Shown: positions 3,383 to 61,400 of the stretch, piece by piece
How positions within the stretch are numbered: the first letter of the stretch is position 1
Layout: the number at the start of each line of letters is the position of its first letter
Source of the DNA: Alentia gelatinosa
Taxonomy: Eukaryota; Annelida; Polychaeta; Phyllodocida; Polynoidae
DNA length: 64,000 bases
NCBI GenBank assembly: GCA_950022655.1
Contig: OX465587.1
Coordinates: 33,545,716-33,609,715 of the forward strand
Reading direction: 5' to 3'
Notes under the pieces: generated by a model
The model's input: only the letters and a program-made list of their open reading frames with translations
What the model was told of the DNA's origin: nothing
The model's database searches: none
Translations under genes and position numbers: made by a program

Positions 3383-3531
3383 CATCCGGGCAGCTATGAG
3401 GTTTGAGACGCAGGCGGTGAAAACCCTCACAGGACAAACCCAAAACACGGGGCGGCTGTTAGGTTCTCGGTGTAGGCAGTGAAAACCCTGCTGTTGGATT
3501 GTATATATGTTAAATCTTGCTCATTATAAAG

Positions 3532-33300: not shown

Positions 33301-36300
33301 ACTGTCTGTATTTATGTGACCTGAGATATAATCGTTTTGTAAATTCACAGGGAAGAAGAGATCGGCAATTTCCGTAAAGAATTCCACATATTCTTCGTTC
33401 CACGTAAAAGTCTTCTCTGCGAGCGTCGCTTAAAGGCAGGTATCACTTTAAATTCAACCTTCATTATCATTGATATTGTACGATGCACAGTAGACTCCCT
33501 CTATTACGACCACATCAAGGACTGGGCTAAAATGGTCGTATTAGTGAGCTGGTCGGTTTAAGAGTACAGTGTAAATGAATAGATACATTTTAGTATATTA
33601 TTGAGAATAAAAACATAATTTCAAACATTAAATATCCAATCTCTTTGTCTTTAACCACCTCCATTTTCATTGATTCACCCTGCTGAATCTCAAAATTCCT
33701 AGCCATGGACACGTACATTTGGTTGCATTAGTGAGAGTAACTTTGACATATGGGTCTTCAAATAGTGGTCGTTAGGCGAGGTCGTCGCAATAGCGAGGTG
33801 GTCGTATTAGTGAGCGTTTTTTAAAGCCAAAATAGAAGGTAAAAGTTTAGAACTGACTAGAAATGTCCGTAATCGCGGGGTGGTCGTATTAGCGAGGTCG
33901 TCCTTAGGTGAGAGTCTACTGCATTTGGTTCTACCATTTGTTATTACCATTGACATATTAGGTTGATAAAAATCAAAAGGGAAATCTAATGTATTTTTCA
34001 TCTTAAAATAACCTTAGTACCAACGCAATATATCTATTCTATTGTATTTATGTCTATCTATCTCACTTTCGTATTTGGAATATTCACTACCCCATAGTGT
34101 ATTAGTAATTCAAAAGGAAACGTAATGGAAGCTGAGTTACATTAATTCAAATGTATTCTAATTTCTTTTGTGTTGTAATATTAACATAAACAAAAACTTT
34201 TTAATATTTCATATTTACTTTACCAGGAACTGGGTGTCTATGGTACCTTCACAAATGTCGATGAGTACTGCTTGGACCTCATTCCGTTTGACTACGACCT
34301 TCTGTCTATGGAGATGGATGATACATTCAGGGTAAGTCTGTGACCTTCTGTCTATGGAGATGGATGATACATTCAGGGTAAGTCTGTGACCTTCTGTCCA
34401 TGGAGATGGATGATACATTCAGGGTAAGTCTGTGACCTTCTGTCTATGGAGATGGGTGATACATTCAGGGTAAGTCTGTGACCTTCTGTCTATGGAGATG
34501 GATGATACATTCAGGGTAAGTCTGTGACCTTCTGTCTATGGAGATGGGTGATACATTCAGGGTAAGTCTGTGACCTTCTGTCTATGGAGATGGATGATAC
34601 ATTCAGGGTAAGTCTTTGACCTTCTGTCTATGGAGATGACATTTAGAGTAAGTCTGTGACCTTCTGTATATGGAGATGGATGATACATTCAGGGTAAGTC
34701 TGTGACCTTCTGTCTATGGAGATGACATTCAGAGTAAGTCTGTGACCTGTCTATGGAGATGGATGATACATTCAGGGTAAGTCTGTGACCTTCTGTCTAT
34801 AGAGATGACATTCAGAGTAAGTCTGTGACCTTCTGTCTATGGAGATTGACGATACATTCAGAGTAAGCCAACTTATTAAAAGTGCCATGCTGGGTTTCTG
34901 AGTTTTATATTTTGGTGTTAAAGGAGATTATCATCCTTTTTTTTAGGTTTATTTTCCCACTCTTTGTTTACTTTTTGTGGGGAATCTTCCAGGGGGGCAC
35001 TGCTGGCTTGTTCGGAGGGTGCCTCTGAAGGGAGGTCAGTAAGTCCGAAGGGACCTCGGTAATACGGAGGGATTGAGGGCTCCAGAAGCTTTCGGAGTAT
35101 TTCCTCTGTTGATGTTGGGAAGTCCCTAGTCCTGGAAGTGGCGTCGAAAGGTATCCTGGAGGTTTGCTTTATAAATCTCCGGAAGGTCTCCGTAAATCAG
35201 TCTGACTCTGGGGCCCGTTCAATGATCTAGGATCCTACATAAAGAACCTTTTCTGTATGTTGTACAAGGGTTATCGTTTGATAATATTTAAAATTGTTTG
35301 CCAAGACAGTATCAGCCATCCATAAGGTCGTCCATAAGTGTTGAATAAAGTTAACCCACATCGTCCATGGCTGTCTATGGCAAACAGAAAAGGGTCTTCA
35401 TGTAGGATTCTAGATTATTCAACAGGCCCCTGGTCTGGGCTCGAACCACCTCCGGGTGACATCCCTCCGCAGTGTTTTATTGTAACTGAAAAACTCATCT
35501 TGGCGAGAGTTTACAAAGTAAATAACAAAGCACTTATTAGAAAAAAGAGACAAAAATAGCGGAGACTAGACTATCTAGGTGTTGCTTAACTGTGTTAAAG
35601 AAGAGAAACTGCTGTGTCACTTGGAATAATATCAAGAGACGTCACGAGTTTGAGTATGAGTTTATTTATGTCACACATTTTGTTGGCTCTATAATCTCAC
35701 GAGTGACGAGTGAGATTATAGAGCCAACAAAATGTGTGACATAAATGAACTCAAACTCAAACGAGTGGCGTCTAGATTTTATCCTACCCTGTTTCCCCGA
35801 TTTTTGAATATTAGAAAGTAGTGACATAAACAACACTTTATGTCACTCTAGTGATATTAACAAATCCCATGTTAAGCCTATGGCGTTTTTTATTAGGGGT
35901 AGGATAACAAAGTAAATAACAAAGCACTTTTTAGAAAAAAAGAGAGACAAAAATAGCCGAGACTAGACTATCTGGTGTAACCCATTGTGTTAATGAGGAG
36001 AAACTGCAGTGTCACTTGGAATAAACCGTTATCCTACCCCTAATAAGAAATGCCATAGGCTTTACATGGGATTTGACATAAAGTGTTGTTTATGTCACTA
36101 CTTTCTAATATTCAAAAATCGTTGAAAAAGGGTAGGATGAAATTTAGACGCCACTCGTTTGATATTCACTTCGACTCGTGAGATTACGGAGCCAACACAA
36201 TGCGTGACATAAGTAAACTTAAACTCGTGACGTCTCTTGATATTATTCACCTTTATTTGCTTTTTCTCGTCATCTGTGTAGTTAGTACTGTATTATATAG

Positions 36301-39300
36301 TTTTGTGTAACGTGTGGGATCTCTTGTCCAGGAGTGTTACTTGGAGAACGACACGACGTCGCTGTTCCACGCGGCCAAGTCCCTGATGACACTACAAGCC
36401 CTCTACGGCATCATCCCCAACATTCAAGGCAAGGGCGAGTGTGCCAAGGTAAGTGCCTGTAGTATTCCGCCATACATTCAAATTTTAGAGAAAAAAATAG
36501 ATAAATAAGTAAATAAATTTTAGAGATAGCAGTTTTCCACTTTTCCATGGAAATCCTTCTTCTTATCTTCAGTTTGTACTTTTTTTTGTGTAAAACAATG
36601 AGAGTATTAATTGAGCCTCATTATCACAAATAGAACAGCCCTTTGAATCTGACATACTTTCAGACCTATTTCATGGACAACACAGATGTGTTTTCCATGT
36701 TTAGTCAGTCTCTCTGATAGAGTGATTTCCATCTGAAAAATATTTCCATTTTTTCCTGATTGCAACTGACATGTAATACGTGCCAAATTCAGTTAACAGT
36801 TTGTAGTCATGTTTTCCTTTAAGCAACTGAAATCTTAGCATTTATCTCGTTATTGGTTTAATTTTGATATTTCTTTTTGGTGATGTGTGTGTACCTTATT
36901 TGAACAGCTTCTTCTTTGTTTGTCTGCATAGACTGTCTATGGATTTATCAGTCATCATATTCAATGATTTCGAATATAAGTCTTCAAAAAGTGGATTTTT
37001 CTTTTTTATGTACCTGTTCAGACCTTTTGCTAAAAAGTTCTATTCTAGCAATACATGATATTGACTAATTAAACTTGTTCGATAGTGATATTACTTATGA
37101 CTATAAACTTGTTCAATAATTGTTTAAATGTACAACAGCTGCGCGTTCCTCTCATTTTTAAATCTCAGAACATAGGGAATTGGTTGTTTTTGAACAGGTT
37201 GTTTATAAGCTTTGTCTATTTCAAAACTAATTATTAACAATTGTAATACAATATTTCATGGTGTGCAGCAAGTGTGTGACATGATGTTGCGGATGCGGAG
37301 AGAGATGGCGGGGTCAGAGCCACAGATCACTCCGCAGATCGACAACCTACTCATCCTGGACCGAACGGTGGACCTGCTCACCCCGCTTCTCTCACAACTT
37401 ACGTACGAGGGACTCATCGACGAGATCTTCGGCATCCACAACAGTCAGTGTTCTTTTGTCAGTGTATTAGGGATATGCATATGGGTAGGTTTCTGTGTGG
37501 ACTGGACATTAGACAATCTCACCCTGCTCCTCTTAAGATTCAGTAATTCCCCAAAACAATGTGATCACAGGAGTAATTGACAAGTAAAATGAGCTTAAAT
37601 ATGAAGTGTATACATGTATATATTGACGAAAAAGTCACCAATTGTCACCAATCCAAAATATTCATCAGTCAGGATTAGCATAAAGAACATACCAGCCTGC
37701 CTCTGTAACATTGTGCTCGTTCATCAACAGCGAGTGTGAAGCTGCCGCCAGAGAAGTTTGCCTCCAGTAAGGACGCGGGCCCGCAGGAGGTGCCCACCGA
37801 ACCCAAGAAGTTCATCCTCAACTCCGCCGAAGAGCTATACGCCGAGCTGCGCGACAAGAACTTCAACGCAGTGGGCGCCACGCTCAGCCGCAAGGCTAAG
37901 TACATCACCGCCCAGTTCGATGTGAGTCTTTATCCTGGTGTATTTCTCCACTTTTACATGGAAACCCCTTGTTTTCATTTCCAGTTTATAAAATTCTTGT
38001 GTAAAATAAATTTAGTATAAATTGAGCCTCATTCATGGGTCGGATTTTTGAAACCTGCTAAATTGCCAAAATAAGCTTATTCAAGGTTCATGTTGTATAA
38101 ACGTATCTCATCAATGTAAAAATGAAATTATTTGGTGCATCTTTTGATAGTCTTTCTTTCCAACTGGGTTTTGTAAAGCTCTGAGGAATTTTTCCTTCCG
38201 AAAATCAACAAAAACTGTGTTTTTCTAGTGATTTTCACCTTGTTCAAATTTTGGGAGACACAATTTAGAGCCAATTGGATCTATTAAGATGTTTAAAGAA
38301 TATGTCATGAGAAGTGTAGACAATATAATTTAGAAAATTGGTAAAAGATTGAAAAAATATTAAAATGGTGAAAAATATCTAGGACCTTCAAATTTTCCAA
38401 CATAGAGACCCATAGAGCATGTTGTTCAACACCCCGACTTTCAGTGGACAGTACTAATGAAATATTTTGAGAGAAATTAATTTTCCTTTATTGTACAATG
38501 CTGACAAGAATCCTGGCTGTGATACCTGAAAGTTTCAACACAATCGGATTATCCATTCTGATATCAGAACATTATGATTTCATGATGATATTTTTCCAAA
38601 AAAATGGTGTGTTGGACCACACATCTCTAAAGGATGTATAAAAGAACTAATAATCATAATGGAATAACAAATATCCCTGATTATGTTAAGAACCCCTACC
38701 ACTCATGAATACCCAGGTTGATTTTTTTCTAAATAAAAAAATATACTTTTTATGGTTCAAAAACTGAAAACGTGTTGTCCGACACCCAGGGGTGTCGGAC
38801 AACATGCTGTGATATAAGTTATGATTTTGGGGTTGTTTTTATCAGTAATTGAGTGGTTTGCTTTGTTAAATATAGCTTATTATCACTTCATTAAAAATAT
38901 AAAGGATTATAGCCTCAAATATTATTTTTCTCATTGTTCTGAGCAATTCTATTAACGTGTTGTCCGACACCCCTCGTGTTGTCCGACACCCCTGTGTTGC
39001 CCAACACCCCAAATATGGTTCAGAGCTTTTCTTTTAAATCTAATATATAATTAAAGTATTCTGGGTAAAATATAATGTGTGTTACCATATAATATTAGTC
39101 TTTCGCAAGTTATAAACTTTATAACATTTCTTGAAATTTCAAATATTTAGGGGGCTGGACAAACTGCAGTATTAAACACAACTTCAAAATTTTTTTAGGT
39201 TGCCCACACAACCCAAAAAAATTGGAAATAAAACAACTTCAAAAGGCTCTCAAATCTAAACCATTCATCTGATTTTGTTGGAATAATGTTTTTCTGGAAG

Positions 39301-42300
39301 GTTCTTAGTAGGTGGTTAACATAAAATATAAAAAGAAGTATAATTCTAAAAAGAAAATTTACATGTTTTATCCCAGGATCAAAGCGGAATTTAGCAGGTT
39401 TCAAAAATCCGACCCTCATGCGAACAAAACATTGATTTCAACCTCCTCATAGACCCTCAGCCCTACGTCGCGGCTGAAAGGTACTGTTATGCCACCAAAT
39501 ACACTGACGTTCTTTAATTTTCATGAAAAAGAAAATCTAGAAAGTGAGTGAATCTCAGCTGTTCATAAAGCTCTCAGCATGTTCTCCTAGTCCGGACACG
39601 GTCTAGTCATTCTCTCCACATATCTTATTGGCGATTTTTACTATTGAATGATAATTCTGATCTGGAAATTATCCAGTGACAATATGAGGGACTAACAATC
39701 CCTAACGAAAAAAATGTGTTTGGAACAAATTGAATTATGTTCAGCATAAAACTACGAAAAAAAAGTCAAGTGAGCAAAATATCTGAAATTTTGTTATTTT
39801 CTTTCCATTTCCGTTAATTTTTAGGAACGACATGCGGCTAAAACGGTCGGCGAGATAAAACAGTTCGTGTCCAAACTGCCGCACATGCAGGCCGCCAAGT
39901 CGTCGCTAGCAACACGTAGGTCACAGTTTGGTATCATCAGAAACGGCAGTTTCCATTTTTACATGGAAGTCCACCTTTTTCATTTTAAGAATATAAGATT
40001 CTTTCTATTTGTGTAAAACTAACTACTGATTTACCCCCGATCCCCATTCATGCTAATAAGTACACAATATTAACCTGTTTCTGATGCTAGTCGGCATATC
40101 CTCCTCTTTGTAGTTAGCATGTTGTAATATCTGAGCGAGGATATTGCATGGAATCAACTGTAAGGACTTGACTCTGAGGACGAAACGCTCAGTAGTATCA
40201 GAAACAGGATAACCCTTAAAGGGCGAATGATGCCTTGAGGCATCAACCGGCCCAGGGCGAATGATGCATTTCTCTAAAATATAAAAATTCGTTTTTAACA
40301 AGGAATTAATGGAGCAACATCGTTCAAATTTTCACAGAATGTAGGTCTGGAACCAAAATTAGTTTTTCTATTCCGAAAAAATAAGATATTTAGGATTACG
40401 TATCATACCACGTGATCAAACAATCAAATTATGGGGAAAAATATTCCCATGATGTAATTTGTAAGTCGGTAAGAAAGTTGTGTTGGGTGTTGCTTACAGA
40501 TACTTCAGTGGCTGAACTAATCAAAGAAGGCACAGACTCAGACGAGTTCATGGACTCCTTACGAACCCAGCAAGGTAAGGTACTCCGCTCAACTTTAACA
40601 TCCCCTGAGCCCTGCTCACTTTGACAGAATCCGCATTTCAATTATGCCAATTATATGAAAATGTTGTTAGCAAAATATCTAATTATCAAGAGGCACACGT
40701 ATGTTCTCCCCTGGCAGAATGTTGTAATGTATTTTGGTTTTATTTGATTTTCTGCAGAATTCATCAACAATATAGACACCGAAAAGGCAAACCCGTATCT
40801 AGAAGACTGCATCGCAAGGAGAGAACCAATTATTAAGGTAAAGATCGCCTGACTGTTTTTATACCACCGTTCCATTTCATAGTACAACAGGAACGTTTAA
40901 ATGTATATCTATGAAAAAAAGTTTGCTCAGTTCTTTCTTTCTTTATAGTGTGTAACTACTTTTTTAATTCATTTTCTAAAAATGGCAGTTTTCCACTTTT
41001 CCAAGGAAATTCTTGTTTTCATATCCAGTTTATAAAACTCTTTTTCATGTGAAAAACAAATATTTTATAAATTGAGCCTAATTACTCACACCAATAAACA
41101 GTGGTTCAAACTTCCCCCACACATTCCAGCCCTATCCCATGGCAAATAAAGATGTGTTGTCCATGGTCTTTTTGAGGCAGTAAATTCCACATGAAATGTA
41201 TTTCCAATTCTTTTCGTGGCCTCATCTGAATTCCCTGTAGAGCATTGCTGATTTATTTTAGTATTGTCAGAGGGGGAATAGTTATACCTTTCTGGAACAA
41301 TATTGAGATATAACAGTTTTAAAATCAATTTTTGTTTTTAAATTCATATTTCCTTTGTCTTTTGCAGGTTTTACGTCTTCTCTGCATACAATCTTTATGT
41401 AACAACGGATTCAAACAGAAACTCCTCGATTACTACAGGAGGGAAATCATACAAGTAAGTTTACATTTGTAACTCGTTAAAGTGAGTTTAATTGAACTCC
41501 TATATTTATCTTCAGTTCCTCTTCTCTGGACCAGTCATAAGCATTTAACCAGAATTTGTTATAAGGAACTGATAATTCAGATTTGAATTTACCTACATAT
41601 TATCTTTTTTTAATGCAATTTCTATTAAGGAAATATTGAGTGTACACAATCACCGAATTTGGCTATACAGCCGTTCTTCCACTCAGGCCCTAGACCCCTA
41701 CTCTTCATTCTAATGGCGGGTGTTAAACGTAATGGGCAGTGGGTACCACTTTTGTGTAAGTCTTTGGTATGACCTGACCGGGGTTTGAACTCCTGAACTC
41801 CCATGCTCGAGGGGAACACCCCTACCACTTAGCCACCGAGCTTGGTAAAGCGTTTCATTTCAGGTCATCTCAGGAAAAGATAAATAGAACTAATTGCGAC
41901 CAGTTATGGATCTGTTGTATTGCGAATAGATGGCCTGTTCCATCAGGCTGTCCATGAATCTGCCTGTATTGGGCATCTGCCAAACATGATTATCTTCATA
42001 CAGAATGGCAAAACGTGGCTAGGCCTTACTGTATTTCAGACATATTACATTACATATTATCCTTATACATAACTTGTATTTTAGACATTATGTATTATCC
42101 TCATACGTACCGTGTATATCAGTCATATCATGAATTATTTTCATACGTACATGTACATTGTTAATCAGACGTATTATGTATCATCCTCATATAAACCTTG
42201 TATTTCAAACGTATTATGTATTATCTTCATATGTACCTTGTATTTCAGACATATTACGTATTATCCTACCCCTAATAAAAAACGCCATAGGCTTAACATG

Positions 42301-45300
42301 GGATTTGTTTATGTCACGGGTAGTGACATAAAGTGTTGTTTATGCCACTACTTTCTGATACTGATAATGTCGCTCGTCTTCGACTCGTGAAATTATGGAG
42401 CCAACAAAATGCGTGGCATAAATGAACTCAGACTCAAACTCGTGACGTCTCTTGATATTATCTTCATACATACCTTGTATTTCAGCCATTGTGTATTACA
42501 TTCATACATACACTGTATTTCAGCAATATTATGTATTATCTTCATACGTACCTTGTATTTCAGACATATTACGTATTCTCCTCATACGTACCTTGTATTT
42601 CAGACATATTATGTATTATCCTCATACGTACCTTGTATTTCAGACATATTACGTATTATCTTCATACATACCTTGTATTTCAGACGTATGGCTATGACCA
42701 CATCCTCACACTGAACAACCTGGAGAAGGCGGGGATGCTGAAGCTGCAGGGACAGCGCACCTACCCGACCATCAGGAAGTCACTGCGGCTCATCGTGGAG
42801 GAAGTCAACGAACAGGTGAGTCGACAGCTGCAAGTTTAAACTTTCATAATTCAATATGAGATAAACCACCGTTTTGAACTTCCCTATTTTTCACCAACAC
42901 TATATATATGTCCATATATGGGTTGTTCATGCACTTTTCCCCCTCTTAATGTTAATGCACTTTTTATCTTAACTTTCCTAATTCAATATGAGGCTATGAG
43001 TTAAAGCACTGTTTTGAACTTCTCTAGTTTTCATTATTCTTCATGGAATGGGACGGGGTGTGTGGGGAGGTTTGAACCACTGTTTATTGGTGGGAATAAG
43101 GCCGAATTCATTGTCTCCTTGTTTTAACTCCATGCATTGAAAATGAAAGCAATGACTTCCTTGGAAAAGAGGAAATTGCCCGCTCTGCTCAGCCATGCTA
43201 CTTTGAATGACAGTTATTAGAACTGTCCCTAACCACTGTAACCATAGTGCACTGTCGGCTGTAACATTATGATGTCAGCAACCGTATCCCCGGAATCTCT
43301 ATAGCAATATCTATAGGCTCAACAGTAGTAGACTGTATTATGAATACAAATAAAATGTAAATAAGAGTGAAGCATCAAACTTCACTCTTATTGGGGGGGG
43401 GGGGGTATTTATAAATTACCAATGAGTCTGACCCCCCCCCCCCCCCCCCAAAGAAAAGGGAAAAAGATCTGTATTCTGGGAGAAGATAGTGTGGCTTTTT
43501 TTCTCTCTTATTATCTACCTTTAAGAGACATTACTCGTGTTAAGGATAAGGGCGAGGAGCTTCCATTAGCTGGGAGGTGTTTGCCATATAAAGCCATGCC
43601 ACAGTTGTCATCATTCCTTTACACAGATTCACTCCCAATAACAAAGTGTAGGGAGGAGTATGCTACGAATTTCAAAATGGAGAACCCTAAAATAAAATAC
43701 ATTGAAAGTTTGCTTTCTACCTGACAGAACCCGAATGACATCTCGTACGTATTCAGTGGTTACGCCCCGCTCAGTGTACGACTCGCTCAAATCCTGCACC
43801 GTCCGGGCTGGCGAAGCATCACCGAAGTGCTAAACCTGCTGCCCGGCCCCACTGTCAGCGAGACGCAACCCATAGCCGTCGGGCTCCGAAAGCGAAGTGA
43901 GTGATCATCTTTTTGTTTAAAGCCAGATTTATGAAACGTGGCTATATCACTTCTGTCATCAACCGAATTTTTTTGTTTGTTTAAAGTCATGTTATTTCAA
44001 ACACGAGTAGGTGTGATTGGATTGTGATGCTGATTGGTACCTAGCAAGATATCAAGTGCGTTATGGGATATCAAGATACATTTAATTATGAGGAGAAGTG
44101 ATTTGCACATTATCGTTCTTCTAGTGAATTTCATGTAGTATCAAATCAATTCAATATTACAAACAAGCAGGCCTGACAATAGGATACATTGGTTCACTAC
44201 TATTACATGGAATCAACCTTAAAATCACCGTGATTTATCTAGAAGAATGCTAAATAAAAAGTCAATAATCTCAATATTTGTTTTCCTTTTTTTTTGCCAT
44301 TTGGGTTATGGCTGCCATTTGTTTTACAATGCAAGGTGACTTACATAAGAACCCCGGTAAGCAGACCAGGTATGTGTGACTAAGTCAAATCAACATGACT
44401 CTAGCTGTGACTGTGTGTCATGACTTTTAACAGTCTTTTTATTTATTTTTTTTATTTTATTTTTTTTAACACTTTTATTGGGTCACAGTTATTATACATA
44501 TAACAACCATAACGGAGGTTGTTCTTCCGTCTGGTCCCGTCAGAAAAAAATATAATCAGGGTTATTATGTAATCGCACATGGTTGGCCTGAAACTCAGGG
44601 AACACTATCAATTAAAGATGTCAGTGAAGTTAAGTGCACCAATAATGATGAGGATCATAACATGATATGATAACACAGCTATAGTCAGGGTATACATTTA
44701 TTGTGGATATTCCATAACTTATGGGAACAGGATTATATTATGTGGTACATATCCATGTAAGTTACTAGAGAAAAAAGAAAAAAAAAGAAATACAGGTTAT
44801 ATATAATATGATACTTTTTATCAGATTTATATTATTAGAGCATGCTTGCACACGCTATATACATCATCTAGAGTTTAGAGGGGTCCATATAGACTTTCAG
44901 GGTACTGCATACAAACTATCCCTTCACTATCTGTGCGCTATTCACTGTGATATTGAGAACTTAGCAGGAAGCCCGTGTCACAGTCGCTTAGAGGCGTGCC
45001 CAGCTGACCATGATCAATCAATCAAGACCAAAATACCTCAAGACCCACTGGTGCTTGATGTATTTGGATCCTAGATAGGCAGCTGCAGAAATGGCAAGTT
45101 GACTGGGTACAAGTGGGTTACAGAAAACTATCCATTGGCTAAATCTAACTTATACCTTTTAATTGTTACTCATTTATAATTGCAAGCTCATTCATCAATG
45201 ATGAACATACTATTTGCTCCTAGTATACCTATACAGTCATTCATGTCAACTTGTGTTCTCACGCAGGGAGCTCGGTCACCTCCACACACTCCGGGACGGG

Positions 45301-45909
45301 CGAACAGAAAGTTACACTCGTCTTCTTCCTCGGAGGAGTCACATACGCAGAGATCTCTGCGCTCCGCTTCCTTTCCCAACTAGAAGATGGTAAGACATGA
45401 TCAGTTATAATCAAGATTGTTCTTGAAAACTTTTGTAAAGCTTCCTTTCCTAATGAAAGCTTGTTCTGCAGGACGAAATGTAGGCGGGAATAGAACCCCA
45501 AACTCACTATTCACTGCTCTATGAAAGTTGTGTCTATGAAATCAGATATTGTCTACAAGAACAAAAAAGGAAAAAAACGGGTCAGTTTCCTCCATTTTGA
45601 TAAAAAGTGGGATAGTGAGTGTGACCAAATTTGAATTTAGCTATCTTTTACATTAAAAATAAACTAATGTAAAACCTAATCTAATAAAATGTATCAAATT
45701 GTTTGCCAGTGTAGCTTGCGTAGAATTTAGCACGTTTGACAGGGGAACTTTTCCACAGAAACTCACGCTTGCTGTAATAACCAGCACTCTTACTTCTCTG
45801 TGCAGGTCCCGCAGACTACATCATCGCCACAACAAAAATCATCAATGGGGAGAACTGGATCTCGTCAGTGATGGACACGCTCACCCCGCAGTCGACAAAC
45901 CCATTCTAA
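30375..45909 (+). CDS. VPS33A: VPS33A, SM-family vacuolar sorting protein, complete, 16 coding exons
   Basis: Sec1/Munc18-family subunit of the HOPS and CORVET tethering complexes. It binds VPS16 and SNAREs for endosome and lysosome fusion. Coding exons: 30375-30476, 31398-31463, 32365-32492, 33351-33435, 34227-34331, 36332-36448, 37269-37443, 37731-37921, 39825-39915, 40500-40574, 40758-40837, 41368-41454, 42684-42815, 43728-43896, 45267-45389, 45806-45909. All phases join and give 609 codons plus TAA, close to the vertebrate length (about 596). Family landmarks include [25 protein letters not shown]-type [96 protein letters not shown] and the [20 protein letters not shown] end. The start is the first ATG in good context (ATCATGG). 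Exon 4 uses a GC donor (AAAG/GCAGGT). Exon 5's donor, exon 13's acceptor and the stop codon each sit inside tandem arrays. The C-terminus ([11 protein letters not shown]) is a few residues longer than usual. Confidence 0.96.
31665..32075. repeat. dispersed repeat in VPS33A intron 2
   Basis: The segment shares GGACGATACGCTTCATAGCC, GATAGGCAACATATTATCAT, CCTCCCGAAAGCGAAGCGTA and GTATCATCCAGAGCGTGCTG with 47786-48083. ATACGCTTC near the left and GAAGCGTAT in the middle are inverted. The small frames here are non-coding. Confidence 0.7.
32571..32871 (+). mobile_element. tRNA-derived SINE, full-length reference copy (VPS33A intron 3)
   Basis: The head GGGGAGATAGCTCAGTGGTA contains an A-box (TAGCTCAGTGG), and a weakened B-box follows (GATTCAGGTCCCAC). 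Next come the central domain (TCACCCCCAGCAGTGGTAGA, CTCACCTCGGTAAATCTGTA) and the tail (TCATCTCATAGATTCGATCA, TTGGATGTTAAACTACCAAA) with AAACAAACAAA at the end. Length is about 300 bp. It lies in the sense orientation of the host intron, 79 bp after the exon 3 donor. Confidence 0.85.
33480..33930. repeat. inverted-repeat MITE-like segment in VPS33A intron 4
   Basis: CAGTAGACTCCCTCTATTAC at the left and GTGAGAGTCTACTG at the right (33911-33923) are inverted. Between them, GGTCGTATTAGTGAGC/GGTCGTATTAGCGAGGT motifs repeat. Length is about 440 bp. The CAGTAG-ACTC-CCTCTATTA end style occurs on short DNA elements of many invertebrates. Confidence 0.6.
34288..34866. repeat. 46-bp tandem array made from the exon 5 end and its splice donor
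   Basis: The first unit is the real 3' end of VPS33A exon 5 plus its donor (CTTCTGTCTATGGAGATGGA, TGATACATTCAGG/GTAAGTC). Identical or nearly identical junctions recur at 34378, 34424, 34470, 34516, 34562 and 34608 (GT positions), 46 bp apart. Shorter, more diverged units follow to about 34866, for roughly 12 copies in all. Similarity decays away from the exon. Reading through any unit meets TGA at once (AGG GTA AGT CTG TGA). Confidence 0.93.
35505..36028. repeat. local duplication flanking the foldback element
   Basis: About 120 bp left of the element (ACAAAGTAAATAACAAAGCA ... CAGTGTCACTTGGAATAA-like) is repeated right of it at 35908-36025, with about 10% differences. A second foldback element in the opposite orientation follows directly. 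Confidence 0.85.
35630..35907 (-). mobile_element. bipartite foldback element, CC-type (VPS33A intron 5)
   Basis: The element is 278 bp. The stem pairs TATGTCACACATTTTGTTGG with CCAACAAAATGTGTGACATA, apex CTCACGAGTGACGAGTGAG. The module 35779-35907 runs TTATCCTACCC to GGGGTAGGATAA with TTAAGCCTATGGCG inside. It belongs to the same subgroup as 16020-16303. Confidence 0.9.
36029..36242 (+). mobile_element. bipartite foldback element, one palindrome arm deleted (VPS33A intron 5)
   Basis: The module starts TTATCCTACCCCTAAT (ATAGGCTTTACATGGG inside) and closes GGGTAGGATGAAA. Only the outer pieces of the stem remain (GACGCCACTCGTTTG, then CGACTCGTGAGATTACGGAG, and end GACGTCTCTTGATA). It lies in inverted orientation to 35630-35907. 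Confidence 0.85.
36525..36745 (+). repeat. intron-dwelling dispersed repeat, copy in VPS33A intron 6
   Basis: The consensus is visible as GCAGTTTTCCACTTTTCCAT, GGAAATCCTTCTTCTTATCT, GTGTAAAACAATGAGAG, TAATTGAGCCTCATTATCAC. Related copies lie at 37940-38036, 39940-40050 and 40978-41240, with diverged or inverted ones at 42850-43190, 22930-22990 and 17105-17285. Confidence 0.7.
38037..39415. mobile_element. 1.38-kb non-autonomous DNA transposon in VPS33A intron 8
   Basis: The termini GGGTCGGATTTTTGAAACCT and its inverse (AGGTTTCAAAAATCCGACCC) are exact over 20 bp, and the match extends to about 28 bp (GCTAAATT). TCAT directly flanks both ends (38033-38036 and 39416-39419), giving a 4-bp target duplication. 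No transposase frame is present. Inside are repeated GTTGTCCGACACCCC motifs (38775-39015). It splits a copy of the intron-dwelling repeat after GAGCCTCAT. Confidence 0.85.
40195..40420. repeat. dispersed repeat, inverted relative of 9890-10170
   Basis: GATGCCTTGAGGCATCAACC, ATAAAAATTCGTTTTTAACA, CAAATTTTCACAGAATGTAG and TATCATACCACGTGATC correspond in inverse order to the 9.9-10.2 kb copy (GGATCACGTGACATGACACA ... AACGAATATTTTGTAAATGA). It sits in VPS33A intron 9, 80 bp before exon 10. Confidence 0.6.
41690..41848 (-). mobile_element. second tRNA-headed SINE family, fragment (VPS33A intron 12)
   Basis: Minus-strand reading gives ACCAAGCTCGGTGGCTAAGT (A-box like) and GAGTTCAAACCCCGGTCAGG (B-box like), then a non-tRNA body with CCCACTGCCCATTACG. 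It has no similarity to the SINE at 32571. Alternative: a diverged tRNA pseudogene. Confidence 0.6.
42030..42683. repeat. 40-bp tandem array ending in the exon 13 splice acceptor
   Basis: The units read CATACGTACCTTGTATTTCAG then ACATATTACGTATTATC. Acceptor-like CTTGTATTTCAG starts recur at 42553, 42593, 42633 and 42673, exactly 40 bp apart, and the last is the real acceptor of VPS33A exon 13 (42684). Older, more diverged units extend left to about 42030. A foldback element (42261-42457) is inserted in one unit. Confidence 0.92.
42261..42457 (+). mobile_element. bipartite foldback element, arm-deleted, inside the acceptor array
   Basis: It starts TTATCCTACCCCTAAT (ATAGGCTTAACATGGG) and ends CGTGACGTCTCTTGATA. 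The right closure of the module and the first palindrome arm are missing, as in 36029-36242. The flanks are ATATTACGTA and TTATCTTCATAC, which join to the normal array unit ATTACGTATTATCTTCATAC. The ends are ambiguous by 7 bp (TATTATC). Confidence 0.88.
44280..45170. repeat. VPS33A intron 14 with third LEACPAD-motif repeat
   Basis: 44940-45130 carries [13 protein letters not shown] in the plus frame and TGGCAAGTTGACTGGGTACA downstream, matching 21320-21510. The rest of the intron is AT-rich with no gene. Confidence 0.5.
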
Positions 45910-46625
45910 CATCTCAGTGCCCTCTCTCAGAGAAACCAGCGAGGAAATGCTGGTGATGGACACGTTCATCCCGCAGTCTACAAACCCATTCTAACGTCTC
46001 ACCGGCCTCTCTCAGAGAAACCAGCGAGAAAATGCTGGTGATGGACACGCTCACCCCGCAGTCTACAAACCCATTCTAACGTCTCACTGGCCTCTCTCAG
46101 AGAAACCAGCGAGAAAATGCTGGTGATGGACATGCTCACCCCGCAATCTACAAACCTGTTCTTACGTCCCACCGTCATCTTTCTCTGAGAGTGGGGAGAA
46201 CTCGATCACATCATTGACCCATTCTTAACACCTCGCCGGCCTCTCTCAGAGAGACCAGTGAGACCAGGCCAATGATGGACACACTCTCCCCACAATCTAA
46301 CAATGTGTTCTAACATCTCACTGACTTTCTCTCTGAGACTGGGGAGAATTGGATCACATCAGGGATCTCACTGGCCTTTCTCTCCGAGAGACCGATGAGA
46401 ATTGGATCTTGTCAATGATGGACACACTCACCCCACAGTCTACCAACCCATTCTGACATCTCACTGGCCTCTCTCAGAGAGACCAGTGAGAACTGGATCA
46501 CGTCAGTGATGGACACGCTCACCCCGCAGTCTACAAACCTGTTTTAACGTCTCACCGGGAGAACTCAATCACGTCAGTGACCCATTCTTAACATCTCACT
46601 GGCATCTCTCAGAGAGATTGACGAG
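45855..46625. repeat. 85-bp tandem array starting inside the last VPS33A exon
   Basis: The end of exon 16 (GTGATGGACACGCTCACCCC GCAGTC, then CCATTCTAA with the stop) is the first unit. Further units start at 45956, 46041 and 46126 (period 85), followed by diverged, shortened ones to about 46625. They contain CCTCTCTCAGAGA and ACCAGCGAGAAAATGC. The array therefore begins within coding sequence and makes up the 3' untranslated region or flank. Confidence 0.92.
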
Positions 46626-48310: not shown

Positions 48311-48445
48311 GTGTTTTTGACTGGATTGTCTCGCATGCGGCTTTGACGACAGGCCCCATAGAATAAAATGTACAAGTGATTTAATCCCCAATATTTTTTT
48401 TAATTAAAAAAAATAGGAGTGACTCAGAAAGAGTGTCACATCAGT

Positions 48446-48922
48446 TCAGCTTTGCTCATAGAGCACATCAATGTTTCCCTTCAGCACCACTTTCCCCTCT
48501 GTAGCCGTGCAGAGCAGGGCGAGCCTGGCGATGTGCTTCCTGTACCTGAGCAGCTCCACAGTGGCCGTGACCTGCTCGTCTACGTACAGCGGCGCCGGGT
48601 ACTCCACCGCCTGCCGCAGTAGCACCGACCCCGGCCCGGGCAGCCGCCCCGCCACCAGCCCAGACACCAGCCCCAGCGTTAACGTGCCGTGGACGATCCT
48701 CCGTCCAAATGTCGTCTGCCGCGCGTACTCAGCGTCCACGTGCAGCGGGTTAGCGTCCCCCGTGACGTCAGAGAAGGTGGTGACGTCACTGGCCGTGAAG
48801 GTACGCGTCACGGACGCTGTGTCGCCCACAGAGAGGCGGGGTGTGGGGGTGGTGGAGGAATTAAAGCGGGGAGACTGGTAGAGTCCTCTGACAGCCGCAC
48901 AAGGCCTCAGTCTCCAAGCCAT
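48446..48922 (-). CDS. HTD2: HTD2, mitochondrial (3R)-hydroxyacyl-ACP dehydratase, single exon
   Basis: 158 residues, intronless, on the minus strand. It catalyses the dehydration step of mitochondrial type II fatty acid synthesis. Residues 1-25 are rich in Arg with no acidic residue (MAWRLRPCAAVRGLYQ), fitting a mitochondrial targeting peptide. The MaoC/hydratase-2 signature is present: FSDVTGDANPLHVDAEYA at 50-67, with the catalytic pair expected at Asp56 and His61. FGRRIVHGTLTLGLVSG follows at 72-88, and the hot-dog fold ends at VVLKGNIDVLYE. The length is typical. The ATG (AGGATGG) is the first in frame. The gene starts 137 bp downstream of the MED31 stop on the same strand, and two AATAAA hexamers on this strand lie in that gap, one only a few bases before the ATG. 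In vertebrates HTD2 is known to be made from a bicistronic RPP14 transcript; here the upstream gene is MED31. Confidence 0.94.
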   Translation of the reverse strand: MAWRLRPCAAVRGLYQSPRFNSSTTPTPRLSVGDTASVTRTFTASDVTTFSDVTGDANPLHVDAEYARQTTFGRRIVHGTLTLGLVSGLVAGRLPGPGSVLLRQAVEYPAPLYVDEQVTATVELLRYRKHIARLALLCTATEGKVVLKGNIDVLYEQS

Positions 48923-49059
48923 CCTTTATTATATACGTGTCTGTGAGGGTGGAGGAATCCTTCCTGTTTACCATCCACTTTATTACAATCTTCGGCGGAA
49001 ATATATCCGATCAGGAATTGTTGTGCATGGGACTAAACAGGAACTTTCCGTATGGGTTC
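48923..49059 (-). promoter_or_regulatory. 137-bp MED31-HTD2 gap with polyadenylation hexamers
   Basis: On the minus strand AATAAA occurs at about 48984-48979 and at 48930-48925. These could end the MED31 message. The gap is very short for an independent HTD2 promoter, so co-transcription is possible. Confidence 0.55.
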
Positions 49060-49082
49060 TCACTTTGGCTGTGGTTGAGCTT

Positions 49083-49113
<31 letters not shown>

Positions 49114-52156: not shown

Positions 52157-52492
52157 TTTTTCGGGATCATTAAGTGCGAAACTATCGTAAACCTAAGTGG
52201 CATACAACCAAGACTATATCAGGGAATATCTTTGATTGGTTAATCTTACTATAATTTTTACTCATTTATGATGGATTTGAATTGGAGAACATACGATGAT
52301 TTATACTTAGCGATGCACTCTTTGAGCAGAGATTTAGAAAACTAGTAAGTTCAAGTGGAACGAAGACTCTGCTAGAAGAAGGTTTGCCATTTACTGCGAA
52401 GCTACATAAAATATGGCCGCCTCCATGGTCGGTCCTTGTTGATAAATCAACGTCGCAGCGGAAAGAAAACTTCCCGGAATTATACGCAAACC
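52157..52492. promoter_or_regulatory. bidirectional promoter MED31 / INTS2
   Basis: 336 bp separates the two start codons, head to head. YY1-like motifs (core AANATGGCG/C) occur at the MED31 start (inverse of GCCGCCATTTTTTC) and at about 52409-52421 (AAATATGGCCGCC). No TATA box lies at a useful distance. Sharing by two RNA polymerase II cofactors suggests co-regulation. Confidence 0.65.
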
Positions 52493-55400
52493 ATGGCACA
52501 TAACAGACCGGTTTCACCGGCAACTTTTCAGGCCATCAAAAATGTAGATATTGACCAGTTATCAGAGTTGACAGACGTCCAGCTGCGTCCCATTCTGTCC
52601 TGTTTGGTTCGCATGTCGCTTTGCTCTCCTCTCGACACCAGCGAGCGGTGGACGCAGGAGCGAAAGAAAATATTGAAATGTCTCTCAGGAATCGAGGTTG
52701 TCAACAACCTTGTTGGACTGCTGTCCATAGATTTCCATGCACTTGAACAAGATGCGAGGAAAGAGCAACAGATGAGGTAAGTACATAGTGTTAAACCCCA
52801 ACTTGACCCATTCCAACCAAGTTCATTTATGGACCTTGTTGCAGTTTGTGATGCTATAACGATTCAATAACTTGTGTAATAAAAATTAAAGGGAATGCTG
52901 TCAATATAAATCAATCACATCTACACAGGCTTCATAAAGATATCACTCTTGATATGTCTATGGCAGCCTAATTATACCAAACATATTTCCCATCCATATC
53001 GGGAAATACAGAGGCAGACATAGGCTTCATTATAGTTAATAGTCAGACGACTGAGACGTGGACCAACTTGCTCTGATAAACAGAATATAACAATCTAATT
53101 GGGGCAAAGAAATAGAAAAGAGGGTCCACACCATTCAGGAAGTATTATGGAAAGGTATATGATTTTACTTTCTTGAAAGAAACTCATCTCTTTAAGATAT
53201 TGTAAATACTACGGGACCATATTAAGCCTACGCAAGTGAAAATTCCTGTATAACCTTGGACGTTATACAAACAAGGAAATAGACTTATACAGAGTCCGTT
53301 AACTGAAATCAGTCATTGTTCTTGCTGTACTCTGCACACAGAACTAAGATCGGAGGTCACCAGACAGAGAGTGTCTTCATCTCGCAGCTCCAGCAGAGTG
53401 TGGCGCTGGAGTTTGAGCGAAGTGATGCTGCTCACAAGTTACGCCTACTGCTCAGCGAGCTCCTCTTCGTCATGTCACAGGTGAGTTCATTTTACTTATC
53501 ATAACGCTGCTCACAAGTTACATCTACTGCTCAGCGAGCTCCTCTTCGTCATGTCACAGGTGAGTTCATTTTACTTATCATAACGCTGCTCACAAGTTAC
53601 ATCTACTGCTCAGCGAGCTCCTCTTCGTCACGTCCACGTCTACTGCTTAGTGAGGAAAATTCTACCTAGAAAACGAATGAATAAATGAAAATAGATGATA
53701 TAATGCTTCATCTCTGAAGTTCAATACACATTTATTTACTGTATTGATTTCAGATTAAAGAACCGCGGACGGAGTTCTACCAGAAGTCGTCGGAGTTATT
53801 TGATAATGAAGTCTACCTGGAGGAGGTGTCGGACGTTCTCTGCATCTCTCAAGCAGGTAGGAGAAGCCTCACTCTGTCTATAGTTAGTGTAGGGCAGATT
53901 TCTTTTTTCAGAACTTTTATTTCATTGTTACATACATTGATATCAGTATTTAGTTCCCTTTCCTCAGTACACATTTACGTCTCCATGAAGTTCTTATGAG
54001 ACCATCCATAAAGTACGTACGCATAATTTAAAAAATTTTTGACCCCCCACCCCTCTCCTGATTTTGTACGCAATAGAACAAAGAAGGAGCATAAGTAAAA
54101 TTTCCGAAATGTTTTGCCCCCCCCCCCCCCCCCTCAGTGCGCACATACTTTATGGATGGCCCCTATCTGCAATTACAGCAGTTTTCATAGTTACATGTAA
54201 TATGTAAAGATATAGTACAAAAAAACAACGAAATCAGGGCGGATATCAGGCCTTCTTGGGTCTGGTTTTCATATGCTACCCCACTCCCATTTACTCTTTG
54301 TTTTAGAGTGTACATCGCTCAGGGAGCTTATAGGGCAGGTAGCTATTGTGTCATGCAGGCCGACATCTTTCCCCCGCCGCCATAACAAAAAAAGGTGGCA
54401 GGTGGCATTAACAATGGATTATTGCAGTTGATAACAGTAGTTATGGCCGTGACACCAGTGGTGCCACCTTAACGATCTAGGGTTGGAGATTGAAGACCCA
54501 CGGGAGTGAGATTCTCGTGTAGTGAAAAACTCGAATCTGTTCTTATTTTTTGTAGGACTATACTCAGACAAACTTCTTCTCTTATGATTCATTTGGAGCC
54601 ATGCCGAAATCAATGTTTAATATTGTAGTTTTCTAATCTACCTTTCTCGTGAGAAACCAATGAGATCCCCACTTTTGCTGGTAGCCCTTTTAAAACTTCG
54701 CTGATTCCCCCCTCCCACCAACAGTCTAAGTATTTAGCCCGTGTTTAGCATCTGTCTCTGTGGAGTAGTCAGTAGAGCAGTCGGCTGGGGATGCGAACGT
54801 CGGCAGTTCGAACCCTGCTAACGACAGTCCTGCGTTTTATTTTCCGGACTCCGACTCGACGAAGTCGCTAGTTGATGAGTAAAATTCAACCATCAATCAG
54901 TTTGGTCCTTTTCAAATTAGTCTACTTGAACATTCAAATCATGGATGATGGACGTAGAAATATGTAATCTAAATCTTTCTGATGTATCTTCATCATATTC
55001 ATTTTTATTGCCCACCTATTACAGAGTCTCCATACTAAGCCTATGGAGCCTACAGATCTCTACTGAGTAGATTCCGGAAAGCCGTATTCTCCTAGGCGAA
55101 TACAGCTTTTTGGCCACCTGAAGGGCATTATCATAACTATTCTATATAAACAATGCACGGTGCTTGTGTTGAATTTCTAATTATTTACAAGATGTTTACC
55201 TAATAATTAGTCGAATGGTGAGTAATAAATGCAAAATACCATGATTTTGATCTGTGTGACATATACTCCTTGTAGTTGACATTACACAATACTGGTACTC
55301 CATCATCCATGTCAACTACGCTGAGAATATGGCCACTCAGATCAAAATTATGGTAATCATGGTAATATTGTGTATATATCTCAATGTATATATCTCAGTG

Positions 55401-58400
55401 TATGTATCTCAGTGTATATATCTCAGTGTATGTATCTCAGTGTATATATCTCAGTGTATGTACCTCAGTGTATATATCTAAGTGTATATATCTCAGTGTA
55501 TATATATATATATATCAGTGTATATATCTCAGTGTATGTATCTAAGTGTATATATCTGAGTGTATATATATATCAGTGTATATATCTCAGTGTACATATC
55601 TCAGTGTATGTACCTCAGTGTATATATCTCAGTGTATGTACCTCAGTGTATATATATATCAGTGTATATATCTCAGTGTATATATATCTCAGTGTATGTA
55701 TCTCAGTGTATGTATCTCAGTATACGTATCTCAGTGTATGTATCTCAGTGTACATATCTCAGTGTATGTATCTCAGTGTATGTATCTCAGTGTACATATC
55801 TCAGTGTATGTATCTCAGTGTATGTATCTCAGTGTATATATCTCAGTGTATATATCTCAGTGTATATATCTCCGTGTACATATCTCAGTGTATATATCTC
55901 CGTGTATATATCTCAGTGTATGTATCTCAGTGTACATATCTCAGTGTACATATCTCAGTTTTCCCCAGTTGAGAGTATTTCCCCCTGTATTTGTCTGTAC
56001 TGACACTACGACCACTCCGTGTACAGAACTGCCGTCCTTGTTGCCGATGACGGAGGTGGCCGAGGCCTTGCTGCACGTGTCTAACGGCGTGTGGCTGCTC
56101 TGTCGACTCGTCGCCAACGTCCCAGACTCCTTCTCAGAAGGTAAATTTCTTTCTCTTTTTTTTTGTTTGTTACTAAACATATATCTCTTTCCGATTCATC
56201 ATACCAAACAGAAGGTAAATTCTTGTTTCTAATCACCAGTTTATTAAGAAGTTTTCTTATAGGGCAATGCAAACAGCAGATTGCAGTTTTCTTTTTAATT
56301 CAAAAATGAGCAAGAGAGGGTAGTGGTAGATTTACTGCTATATCATAGGCCAATCCTTCTCATAGTTGAACTACCCAGACAAACAAATAGTGAACATCGG
56401 GAATAACGAGGGAAATCAAACATGATGCGTACTTTGTTTCCAGTGTGTACCTTCCTGGTGGCTAATGGCGAGAAGCAGGACGAAGAGGATGTGGGCGGAG
56501 AGCGGCGTGCGCATGCGCTGCTCAGTCTGTGTCAGATGAACCCGGCGCAGACGATGCCCGTCAGAGCCTTGTGTGTGAGTCTCACTTCTCTGTACGTCTG
56601 ATAAACAAGTTACAACATCGTGATATCTGAATATCGGTTTTCTCTGTTTACGGAAATGTCATTCGATGATATTCCTGTTACTTATTCTGTTAGTTGTTAA
56701 TTATAGTATTGATCTTATTTGAGGTAAAAGAACTTAGCTTCAAGCTTGATTGTTGGATTAAACACTATTCTAATTTTATATGGGGAAAAAATCGTGTCTG
56801 TGACTGGTCTACCTCCATTCTTGTGTGAGTGTGGTTAGTTTTCAGAACCATATCCTTTTCCCACTTTTCTAAACCCCAATCAAGGAAGGCGAATTGTATA
56901 GATTACTGTAGCAAGTTCGGGTCTTAAGAATTAAGTCATGCTCCGGGAACGTGGCGACAAGGGATCTCGCGGGGTCTCGTGCCCACGACACGGGGACATC
57001 ACGTGACAGTCACACCCTGTAAAAGGAGGGTCAATCGCCTTGACTTGCACTGTCCAGCTCTTTAATCGCAAACCTAACTTTACTTATCAGCCACACTCCA
57101 GACCTCTGCCACTTGAACCGTAGTATTTATTTTTTACAACTTGATGACACTCCAGGGGTCATGTACTGAGTAACACTTGCATGAATTCTTTCTTTTAAGA
57201 TTTCTTTATTGTGATCTCTTGCATACAGCAACCTTATCGTTACACCATGTGAAGAAATCAGTTACTTGAATAACAAACCTTTAAAAGCTTGTGTACTGGA
57301 CTAACTCATCAAGTTTTTATTAACATATGCTACATTATTATGATATCCATGAATTCCCGAATTTTTTTACCTCCTCGTGGTATTCACGGACCCATAGACG
57401 ACATAGCGCCTTTCGGATTATACTCTACCATTTACACCTGAGGTATCTAGACATATTCTGGAAATATATGCCTAACAATTAAGTATTACACATAAAAGTA
57501 AAATTGATAATATTCACATGTTACAACCCTACTCTAATTGTATATCATGTCGCTGACTTAGACAGGTTAGACTTCTACCTAAATTCATCTCATAGATTCG
57601 GTGAAACCCAAAGTAAGTCTGATAGAACATATTGGACGTTAAATTACCCAAAAATACAAACAAACAAAGTACGAAGACAGTAAACCAGTGTCCGTATACT
57701 ACGCTGATTGTATATGATGTCGCTGACTGTGCTCAGGTCCAGCACTGTCGCATGCCGGGCCTGGCCGTGGCGCTGACGCTGGAGAACAAGAAGAAGGAGA
57801 CAGGCCCCGGTGTGACGCGGGGAACGCTCTCTGACGTCAGCGACGTCGTGGCCTTCGTCAGCGGTCTGCTGCTCAGCAACGACAGCAAAGTGCGCAACTG
57901 GTTCACGCAGTTCATCCGCATCGGCCAGAAGGTAATCACTCTCCAAGTCCTCTGGTTTACACTAAAAGAAATTTGTTATCGGCTTGCCATAGAGGTGTTG
58001 TTGACACGTCATGATAATTCTCTTGATTACAATAAGCTGGAGAAAGCATATCATGAGGTTATATTCAAATCTATTTGATATATATATATTTTTTATTTTA
58101 TTTTATCGGCTTGCCATAGAGGTGTTATTGCCATATCGTGATAATTCTCTTGATTACATCAAGCTGGAGAAAGCGTATCCCGGGGTTTTATTCATATCTA
58201 TTTAGTGTTCTATATTTGTAGTCATTGTTTATGCTGTGTAGTTATAGGGAAATGTGCCACGTTGAGCTGACACAGTCTAGATATAGACCAAGCAGAAATA
58301 TCCTTCATCTTAACATACATTTAATATGTTGTATTTTTTCTTGAGTATTGATATTCTGAAGCTGTAGATCGCTGTATGTAAGAAACTGACAACATTTATA

Positions 58401-61400
58401 ATTGTCTAAATGAGGGTTCATATTATCGGGGCAGGCACAGCTACCACATAGAAATATCAATTTTGAATGGTTAATTGTGGGTTGCATTACTTACCATGCT
58501 CAGCTCACACAGAGATGTCAGTATTAATCTCCTAAATGTGGGTCTTATTACCGAGTGGGTACAGCTCACACATACAGATGTCCATATTAATCATCTAAAT
58601 GTGGGTCGTATTACTGAGTTTGCACAGCTCACACATACAGATGTCCGTATTATTCATCTAAATGTGGGTCGTATTACTGAGTTTGCACAACTCACACATA
58701 CAGATGTCCATATTAATCATCTAAATGTTGGTCTTGTTACTGAGTTGGCACAGCTCACACATACAGATGTCCGTATTATTCATCTAAATGTGGGTCGTAT
58801 TACTGAGTTTGCACAACTCACACATACAGATGTCCGTATTATTCATCTAAATGTGGGTCGTATTACTGAGTTTGCACAACTCACACATACAGATGTCCAT
58901 ATTAATCATCTAAATGTGGGTCGTATTACTGAGTTTGCACAACTCACACATACAGATGTCCATATTAATCATCTAAATGTGGGTCTTGTTACTGAGTTGG
59001 CACAGCTCACACAAACAAAGGTCCATATTAATCGTCTAAATGTGGGTCATATACTGAGTTGGCACAGCTCACACAAACAAAGGTCCATATTAATCGTCTA
59101 AATGTGGGTCGTATACTGAGTTGGCACAGCTCACACAAACAAAGGTCCATATTAATCGTCTAAATGTGGGTCGTATACTGAGTCGGCACAGCTCACACAC
59201 AGCAACACAATCTTTATGTGTCCTTTCTGTGACAGAAGAAGGAGGAGCCGGCCACGTCCATCCTCACCACTCTGCGGGATGAGCTGCTCAACGAGTTGAT
59301 GAATGTGTTGCCCGAGGGAAGTAACCATGTTAGCGAACGACAAGCCGTGCAGGGCTGTGCCTTCATCAGACTCTACTGCGCCCTCAAGGGTATCGCTGCC
59401 CTCAGGTAAGTGTTATACACCACAAGTCTGCGCTCTCTGTATGATACATGCATGCTACTACATAACATGCCCAGCTAATATCGTTCAATAAAATAGAGTG
59501 ATTAGAATAGATTTTAAAATACATTTTCTGGTACTATCAGTTAAATTGAACTGAGCACATTAACTGTAACCTGCATATGAGACATATGTGTCAGACCTAT
59601 GTACAGTTTTTATTGCGCGTGTATATCAGGTTTTCTGATGGGAAGGTCAAACTCGTATTGAAGCTGATATATGTTAAGATTTTATTGCGTGTATATTTCA
59701 GGTTTTCTGATGAGGAGGTCAAACTCGTACTGAAATTGATTCATGTAAAGTTTTTATCGCGCATATATTTCAGGTTTTCTGACGAGGAGGTCAAACTCTT
59801 ACTGAAGCTGATCACAAGTAACCCGCCGTACACACCTTCTGGTGTGCGATTCGTGACTCTGGGGCTGTGTATGATGCTCTCTTGTCTAGTCGGGTAAGTG
59901 ACTATCCTCTCCTAGCAGTGATATTCAGTGCAGAATGAATTCATCTAAAAACAGTTTAGCTTACTATCTTAGCCAGAGATACATTGACTTTATTAGCAGG
60001 TGGATGGTTGGTCTTATAGGTTATTTGATATTGTTGAATTATGCCTCAAAACAAACGATCAACTGTAACTTATACAGACTTGAACGAGAGAGTAGGTAAC
60101 TGATTACTACGGTGATATGATAATGTAGTGAGCACTGTTTAAGGACTCTGTGATCGCAAGAAGGTTTTTATGGTAGACCGCGTCACACTTCAGTGTACAA
60201 GCGAATCAATCCCAATGAGAAAAAAGTCCTTTAAAACTAATATATAACAAATGTGTCGTCTATATGACAGTGAAAGTTGTACCTCACAGATATACTGCCG
60301 ACTAATCTGTGACTGTTTTCCAGGACCCCTGAGCAGGAGAAGAGCGCTGTTGAATGGATCAAGTGGCTTCTGAAAGAGGCCAGCCGCTTCGAAAAGTAAG
60401 TGGTCACAGTTTTACTTCTTCCTGCTTTAAAATAACTAGGCTTGACAGTAAATCACTCACTAATTTATGTTTATTTATTCGAGGTGTCTGTTTTTCCCCT
60501 ACCAGGGTTGGCATGAATTCAGACTCGCTATTTTACGTAAATTTGACTGAAGTTTTTCTTCTTCCCATACCAGAGTTTGCTGGCATTAAGACTTGATAAT
60601 TTACGTATATTTGGTCAAGGTGTCTGTTCTTCCTATACCAGGGTTGGCAGGAATTAAGACTCAGTAATTTACATATATAGAGAGGGCAGGGATTAAAACT
60701 CAATAATTTATGTATATCTAATGGAGATGTCTGTTCTTCACGTACCAAGGTTGGTGGGGATTCAGACTCAATAATTCACATATATTTGACGGAGCTCTCT
60801 GTTCTTCACGTACCAGGGTTGGCAGGGATTAAGGTTCACTAATTTACATATATTTGACTGTGGTATTTCTTTGTCTCGTACCAGGGTTGGCAGGTATAAA
60901 GGCTCACTAATTTACATATATTTGACTGTGGTATTTCTTTGTCTCGTACCAGGGTTGGCAGGTATAAAGGCTCACTAATTTACATATATTTGACTGTGGT
61001 ATTTCTTTGTCTCGTACCAGGGTTGGCAGGTATAAAGGCTCACTAATTTACATATATTTGACTGTGGTATTTCTTTGTCTCGTACCAGGGTTGGCAGGTA
61101 TAAAGGCTCACTAATTTACATATATTTGACTGTGGTATTTCTTTGTCTCGTACCAGGGTTGGCAGGTATAAAGGCTCACTTATTTACATATATTTGACTG
61201 TGGTATTTCTTTGTCTCGTACCAGGGTTGGCGGTGCGTCAGACTCGTTCGGAGAGATGCTGCTGTTGATCGCCATTCATTTCCACAGTAACCAGAGAGGA
61301 GCCATCGGTGACCTCGTCTGTGCCACACTCGGCATGCAGGTACAGTGCATCTATATATATATATGAATGTACCTCAGGTTTATCACATATGCTATTGTTG

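Follow-up and report, generated by a model that had tools for sequence, protein, structure and literature searches.

Tandem arrays containing exon-intron junctions in VPS33A, INTS2 and other genes of a lophotrochozoan genome

Arrays at exon edges of VPS33A and INTS2

The window analyzed here, a stretch of 64,000 nucleotides (G000:C9:33545716-33609715) from an assembly of 1.234 Gb in 101 contigs, with contigs of up to 181 Mb, contains the adjacent genes VPS33A and INTS2, several exon edges of which lie within minisatellite arrays. A preliminary description of this DNA had named six such arrays, with periods of 46, 40, 85, 79, 72 and 68 bp, and had placed the true splice site or stop codon in the end unit of each. 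Tandem Repeats Finder (TRF), whose 62 rows account for 13.4% of the window, recovered all six with these periods. According to the gene models, the exon-side unit of five arrays holds a splice site of VPS33A or INTS2, and that of the sixth holds the VPS33A stop codon, in agreement with both claims. The genes, the arrays and an intron-only array used for comparison are as follows (MITE, miniature inverted-repeat transposable element).

30375..45909, + strand: VPS33A gene, 16 coding exons, 609 aa (gene model, PDB 4bx8/4bx9, homologues)
34296..34867, + strand: 46-bp x 12.9 array at the VPS33A exon 5 donor (between 34331 and 34332); unit of 36 exon and 10 intron bases; 12 decoy donors
42055..42689, + strand: 40-bp array at the VPS33A exon 13 acceptor (between 42683 and 42684); 6 exon bases shared
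42268..42455, no strand assigned: MITE-like insertion inside the exon 13 array, with TATTATC as an apparent target duplication of 7 bp (by eye)
45868..46174, + strand: 85-bp x 3.6 array at the VPS33A stop codon (45907-45909); more diverged copies continue to 46554
52493..63018, + strand: INTS2 coding exons 1-13; the gene continues beyond the window (gene model, PDB 7cun_B)
53427..53634, + strand: 79-bp x 2.6 array at the INTS2 exon 2 donor (between 53480 and 53481; TRF, alignment)
58501..59199, + strand: 63-bp x 11.2 intron-only array, ending 36 bp short of the INTS2 exon 7 acceptor
59599..59821, + strand: 72-bp x 3.1 array at the INTS2 exon 8 acceptor (between 59773 and 59774); two decoys, each in frame and open
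60455..61231, + strand: 68-bp array at the INTS2 exon 10 acceptor (between 61224 and 61225); 11 copies by alignment; 7 exon bases shared

Residues 1-599 of the 609 in the VPS33A model match PDB VPS33A (4bx8/4bx9), and residues 7-601 of the 601 in the INTS2 model match Integrator subunit 2 (PDB 7cun_B). The INTS2 exon 13 donor was set between 63018 and 63019, the alternative at 63065 leading to a stop. VPS33A intron 4 apparently requires a GC-AG donor, and the model gives exon 4 a GC donor (33436). With the outermost sites used, the frame is intact in the gene models.

The preliminary description had also stated that, in the longer arrays, copies nearest the exon are the most similar. This holds for INTS2 exon 10, where decay away from the exon is clear (five nearest decoys at 94-99%, five distal ones at 69-76%), and in part for VPS33A, with a rough gradient at exon 13 and a partial one at exon 5. 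In the exon 5 array, the first seven copies are at 98-100%; of the six later ones, three with a 6-bp deletion are at 83-85% and the other three at 93-100%. Copy alignment revealed no clean gradient in the stop-codon array. As a caveat, just 6 exon nucleotides are shared by the unit at exon 13 and 7 by that at exon 10. The exon 13 array is split into two stretches (42055-42267 and 42456-42689) by the MITE-like insertion, pieces of which are 88-93% identical to stretches within 16020-16309 and 35627-35907 of the window; since unit copies flank the insertion on both sides, the array appears to be the older of the two. For the INTS2 exon 2 array, a genome search returned this array as its sole match.

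To place these arrays among all junctions of the two genes, a 50-bp probe on each of the 55 VPS33A and INTS2 splice sites was compared by alignment with the 1.5 kb flanking it on each side. Tandem copies were found at exactly five sites (scores 26-50, the next score being 13), and no further duplicated junction was detected among the 55.

Recurrence in other genes

Recurrence was assessed in twenty 10-kb stretches chosen without regard to content, 18 of them at 9-Mb steps on contig C1. Minisatellites with a period of at least 10 bp occupy a mean of 8.8% of these stretches, compared with 13.2% of the window. The window genes served to train an exon finder (threshold 23), which was tested by leaving one gene out: it recovered 8/12 and 7/14 exons exactly and, over 64 kb, placed 4 and 6 calls where no exon is known. 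Applied to the sampled stretches, the finder called 68 exons. Five stretches were extended, giving four gene loci: RRN3, a PRMT4-like gene, a helicase and an LRR gene. Exon edges outside the window are predictions backed by peptide homology.

In RRN3, one donor lies inside a 101-bp x 4.3 array and one acceptor inside a 128-bp x 7 array, while another acceptor has a single diverged second copy (51/61 columns). Most of the 128-bp units (stretch L002, 7022-7920) bear AG/GTAACT at the junction, the slash marking its position, and such a copy could serve as both acceptor and donor, as in recursive splicing or intron gain. An adjoining exon that matches Pfam PF00542, and which we take to be MRPL12-like, has its donor inside a 77-bp x 8.2 array. 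The two-copy RRN3 acceptor and the MRPL12-like donor lie in stretch L026, which was taken because L002 held arrays. No junction copies were found at the 14 junctions of the PRMT4-like gene, the 12 of the helicase or the 6 of the LRR gene.

A second sample comprised 20 places in 19 stretches, drawn from 134 protein-kinase matches in rank order under the rule of no internal stop and an open frame of up to 200 aa. The match exon was called for 18 of these, in 17 stretches, giving 36 junctions, and two acceptors carry arrays: one in stretch L032 (81 bp x 7.6) and one in L038 (a 37-bp unit in six copies that shares just 4 exon bases). The L032 array (3-626, reverse strand) mostly alternates two unit types, forming a higher-order repeat.

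Junctions with copies thus number 5/90 outside the window (3/54 in the four genes and 2/36 in the kinases) versus 5/55 within it, and arrays of this kind are present on contigs C1, C4 and C9. The view in the preliminary description that their recurrence within one 30-kb stretch is unusual is weakened accordingly.

These counts leave out L001, half of which is N; two kinase stretches without a called exon (L029 and L033); exons predicted beyond the kinase matches (L030, L034, L035, L043 and L044; junction scores of at most 10); predictions unassigned to a gene (L002+L026, 4616-4693; PRMT4 locus, one; helicase locus, two; LRR locus, four); exon-like units within the RRN3 array; an unvalidated exon-like repeat in L011 (31.5/50); and the MRPL12-like donor, which was found in follow-up. 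The two-copy RRN3 acceptor, under the TRF threshold, is excluded from the seed null described below.

Array placement and chance

The arrays are probably "mirages", that is, ordinary minisatellites whose founding unit chanced to straddle an exon edge and which are tolerated since the outermost site is used. A competing explanation, along the lines of the preliminary description, is a process linked to transcription or splicing that duplicates exon-intron junctions in preference to other sequence. Two null models bear on this choice. When whole arrays were placed at random over gene bodies, five splice-site overlaps were seen against a mean of 4.66 expected for 11 arrays (P=0.54), or 5/8 against 3.86 for periods of at least 20 bp (P=0.31). 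Because arrays grow by insertion, this null inflates chance overlaps; in the seed null, each array was therefore collapsed to one unit before random placement.

Several points weigh against the mirage reading. Under the seed null, 5/9 arrays in the window overlap a splice site against 0.88-1.06 expected (P 0.0005-0.0014), in a window that was pre-selected for the pattern, and 9/24 do so in all data including the window against 2.92 (P=0.0007); because of these two excesses, a junction bias in array placement is possible. In addition, the presumed use of the outermost site is based on reading frame and homology, and exon edges beyond the two window genes are predicted ones. The kinases alone also favor a junction-directed process (2/4 against 0.33, P=0.025), but if only the clear case, L032, is counted, the overlap falls to one (P=0.30). 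Outside the window, the seed null gives 4/15 against 1.86 (P=0.09), or three without L038 (P=0.28), and the four sampled genes alone give 2/11 against 1.52 (P=0.47).

Other observations also speak against junction targeting. The position of the junction within the unit spans 0.10-0.78 of the period and is evenly spread (11 cases, Kolmogorov-Smirnov P=0.60), with no fixed register, and 3/11 junction arrays share just 4-7 exon bases. With the 50-bp probe at a score of at least 20, copies were found at 69/400 random intronic points and 2/200 exon-interior points; splice sites (5/55) fall between the two and are repeated less than intronic points. One array spans a stop codon, and arrays confined to introns exist as well. 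The excess over chance hinges on the null chosen, and a moderate junction bias is neither established nor excluded. On balance, a junction-directed process is considered distinctly unlikely, and it is rather unlikely that junctions are preferred birth sites of minisatellites in this lineage, with about one junction in fifteen to twenty bearing decoy splice sites. From the preliminary description, the arrays of decoys stand as real and recur in RRN3, the MRPL12-like exon and two kinases, while a process directed at junctions is unsupported; an excess over random placement appears under the seed null in the pre-selected window, is absent under the whole-array null and is not clear in the data outside the window.

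Decoy sites: strength and coding effect

Thirty-three decoy sites in the window arrays were picked by simple patterns, a procedure that excludes altered copies, and were scored with weight matrices built from 26 donors and 24 acceptors. The score of 23 decoys equals or exceeds that of the true site; therefore, strength alone is insufficient to choose the correct site. At VPS33A exon 5, for instance, the true donor scores 10.8, as do 8 of the 12 decoys. The array-bearing acceptors at 42683, 59773 and 61224 score 2.6, 4.6 and 6.8, no higher than the 10th percentile for ordinary acceptors (median 9.5), the matrix having been made from those ordinary sites.

In the joined coding sequence, a premature stop results from 29 of the 33 decoys. 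The four open ones are two at VPS33A exon 13, which are in frame, and the two at INTS2 exon 8, where the unit is a multiple of three. These four would suit an explanation in which the arrays supply alternative splice sites to vary proteins, but the stops introduced by all the others, the lack of a preference for periods divisible by three (3/11 junction arrays) and the decay of distal copies in several arrays make such a function very unlikely. In RRN3, a stop falls within the joined exons for 3/3 donor decoys and 5/6 acceptor decoys, the remaining one being open to the end of that exon.

An assembly or haplotype-collapse artefact is barely credible, given that copies differ among themselves in several arrays, that one array carries an inserted element, that such arrays occur on three contigs of an assembly this contiguous, and that in lancelet PGBD5 comparable repeats, according to excerpts of the report, were confirmed by re-examined Sanger and new Illumina data (PMC3902484).

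Neighboring genes and host

The interval separating VPS33A from INTS2 holds two minus-strand genes, a MaoC-like gene (48449-48925), presumably HTD2-like, and MED31 with a long polyglutamine tail (about 49063-50556, upstream exons placed by eye). No array was found on the placeable MED31 exon edges by rough coordinates; neither of these two genes was scanned with the probe. A match to a retrotransposon-type endonuclease at 3514-4461 of the window is under the Pfam cut-off. A 93-bp unit in the window (1296-1564) looks alike by eye, in opposite orientation, to one near RRN3 (L002 9139-10000), hinting at an internally repeated, dispersed element. In the sampled stretches L015 and L016, inspection by eye showed several long open frames resembling those of retroelements.

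The closest match to the window VPS33A is that of Paralvinella palmiformis (77%), and Branchiostoma lanceolatum stands at 76%. In a maximum-likelihood tree of 32 proteins, the window protein is one of 18 rows that form a lophotrochozoan group (support 100/98), with annelids nearest by path and its placement inside the group unsettled. An amphioxus origin of the window is ruled out by this tree.

Discussion

The reading of the arrays as mirages builds on their observed anatomy, decoy strength, stop-codon effects, lack of a fixed register, absence of a preference for periods divisible by three and recurrence in other genes. In a minisatellite-rich genome, tandem duplications of about 40-130 bp would arise often and would probably expand through slippage or unequal exchange. 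Where the founding unit lay over a junction, every new copy would bring a duplicate splice site, mostly at full strength. The spliceosome may keep to the outermost site (under exon definition, the donor closest to the acceptor of the same exon, or the acceptor closest to the donor of that exon), and the array would thereby be spliced out as intron. Alleles using inner copies would mostly gain a premature stop and presumably be lost by selection. Constant use of the outermost site would in this way allow the copies to persist.

In each array, a true site faces almost identical copies whose distances from it are known, so that RNA data could reveal the rule that the spliceosome follows (outermost, first transcribed or nearest partner). 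Junction arrays also complicate gene annotation and are candidate origins of intron gain. If junctions were indeed preferred birth sites, the genome would amount to a large-scale natural experiment on how splice sites are chosen and would be a breeding ground for introns.

Structures of this kind are already known, as amphioxus mirages, and occur here in several genes of a very distantly related animal. Turri in 1995 reportedly described a human minisatellite of splice donors, presumably in gene 6-16/IFI6; unlike that single interferon-induced gene, several genes are involved here. In the tandem-duplication model of intron gain, according to excerpts of a report on the Rogers model, potato RdRp, vertebrate ATP2A1 and fission yeast 24-bp arrays, a segment with splice signals is likewise duplicated, and in potato this segment spans an intron-exon boundary (PMC4974935); the outcome in that model is a new intron, whereas the present arrays sit inside introns. 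Earthworm metallothionein is also an annelid gene with large intron minisatellites, junction-spanning arrays being undescribed in excerpts of that report (PMC12783039). Nor are such arrays described in the excerpts of reports on gilthead myostatin-2 and amphioxus huntingtin, and a literature search, mostly of listings and passages, found none in an annelid.

The closest parallel is with amphioxus Adh3, the globins BflGb6 and BflGb9, troponin C and PGBD5, for which excerpts of the reports describe minisatellite-like tandem repetition of exon-intron boundaries, involving either donors or acceptors, with units of 10-160 bp, AG/GT in many copies, and copies at the cluster boundary that escape homogenization (PMC3087553, PMC3902484); Adh3 data and globin reverse transcription PCR (RT-PCR) suggest normal splicing (PMC3087553). 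Mirages are also marked by length polymorphism between alleles or tissues and by somatic instability. Likewise, the tandem unit includes the boundary, as defined by homology and frame, at five window junctions and in RRN3, the MRPL12-like exon and two kinases, its size (37-128 bp) lies within the published range, and AG/GT is kept in many copies. In contrast, the host is a lophotrochozoan near annelids, as judged by the VPS33A tree, not a cephalochordate, and whereas the amphioxus cases in these excerpts are described gene by gene, here several arrays occur per gene, and also in genes sampled regardless of repeats. Were junctions preferred birth sites, this would be a second, very distant lineage beside amphioxus with the same junction-coupled duplication process. 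The copies at 5/90 junctions in other genes of a lophotrochozoan suggest that mirages may belong to minisatellite-rich genomes more broadly.

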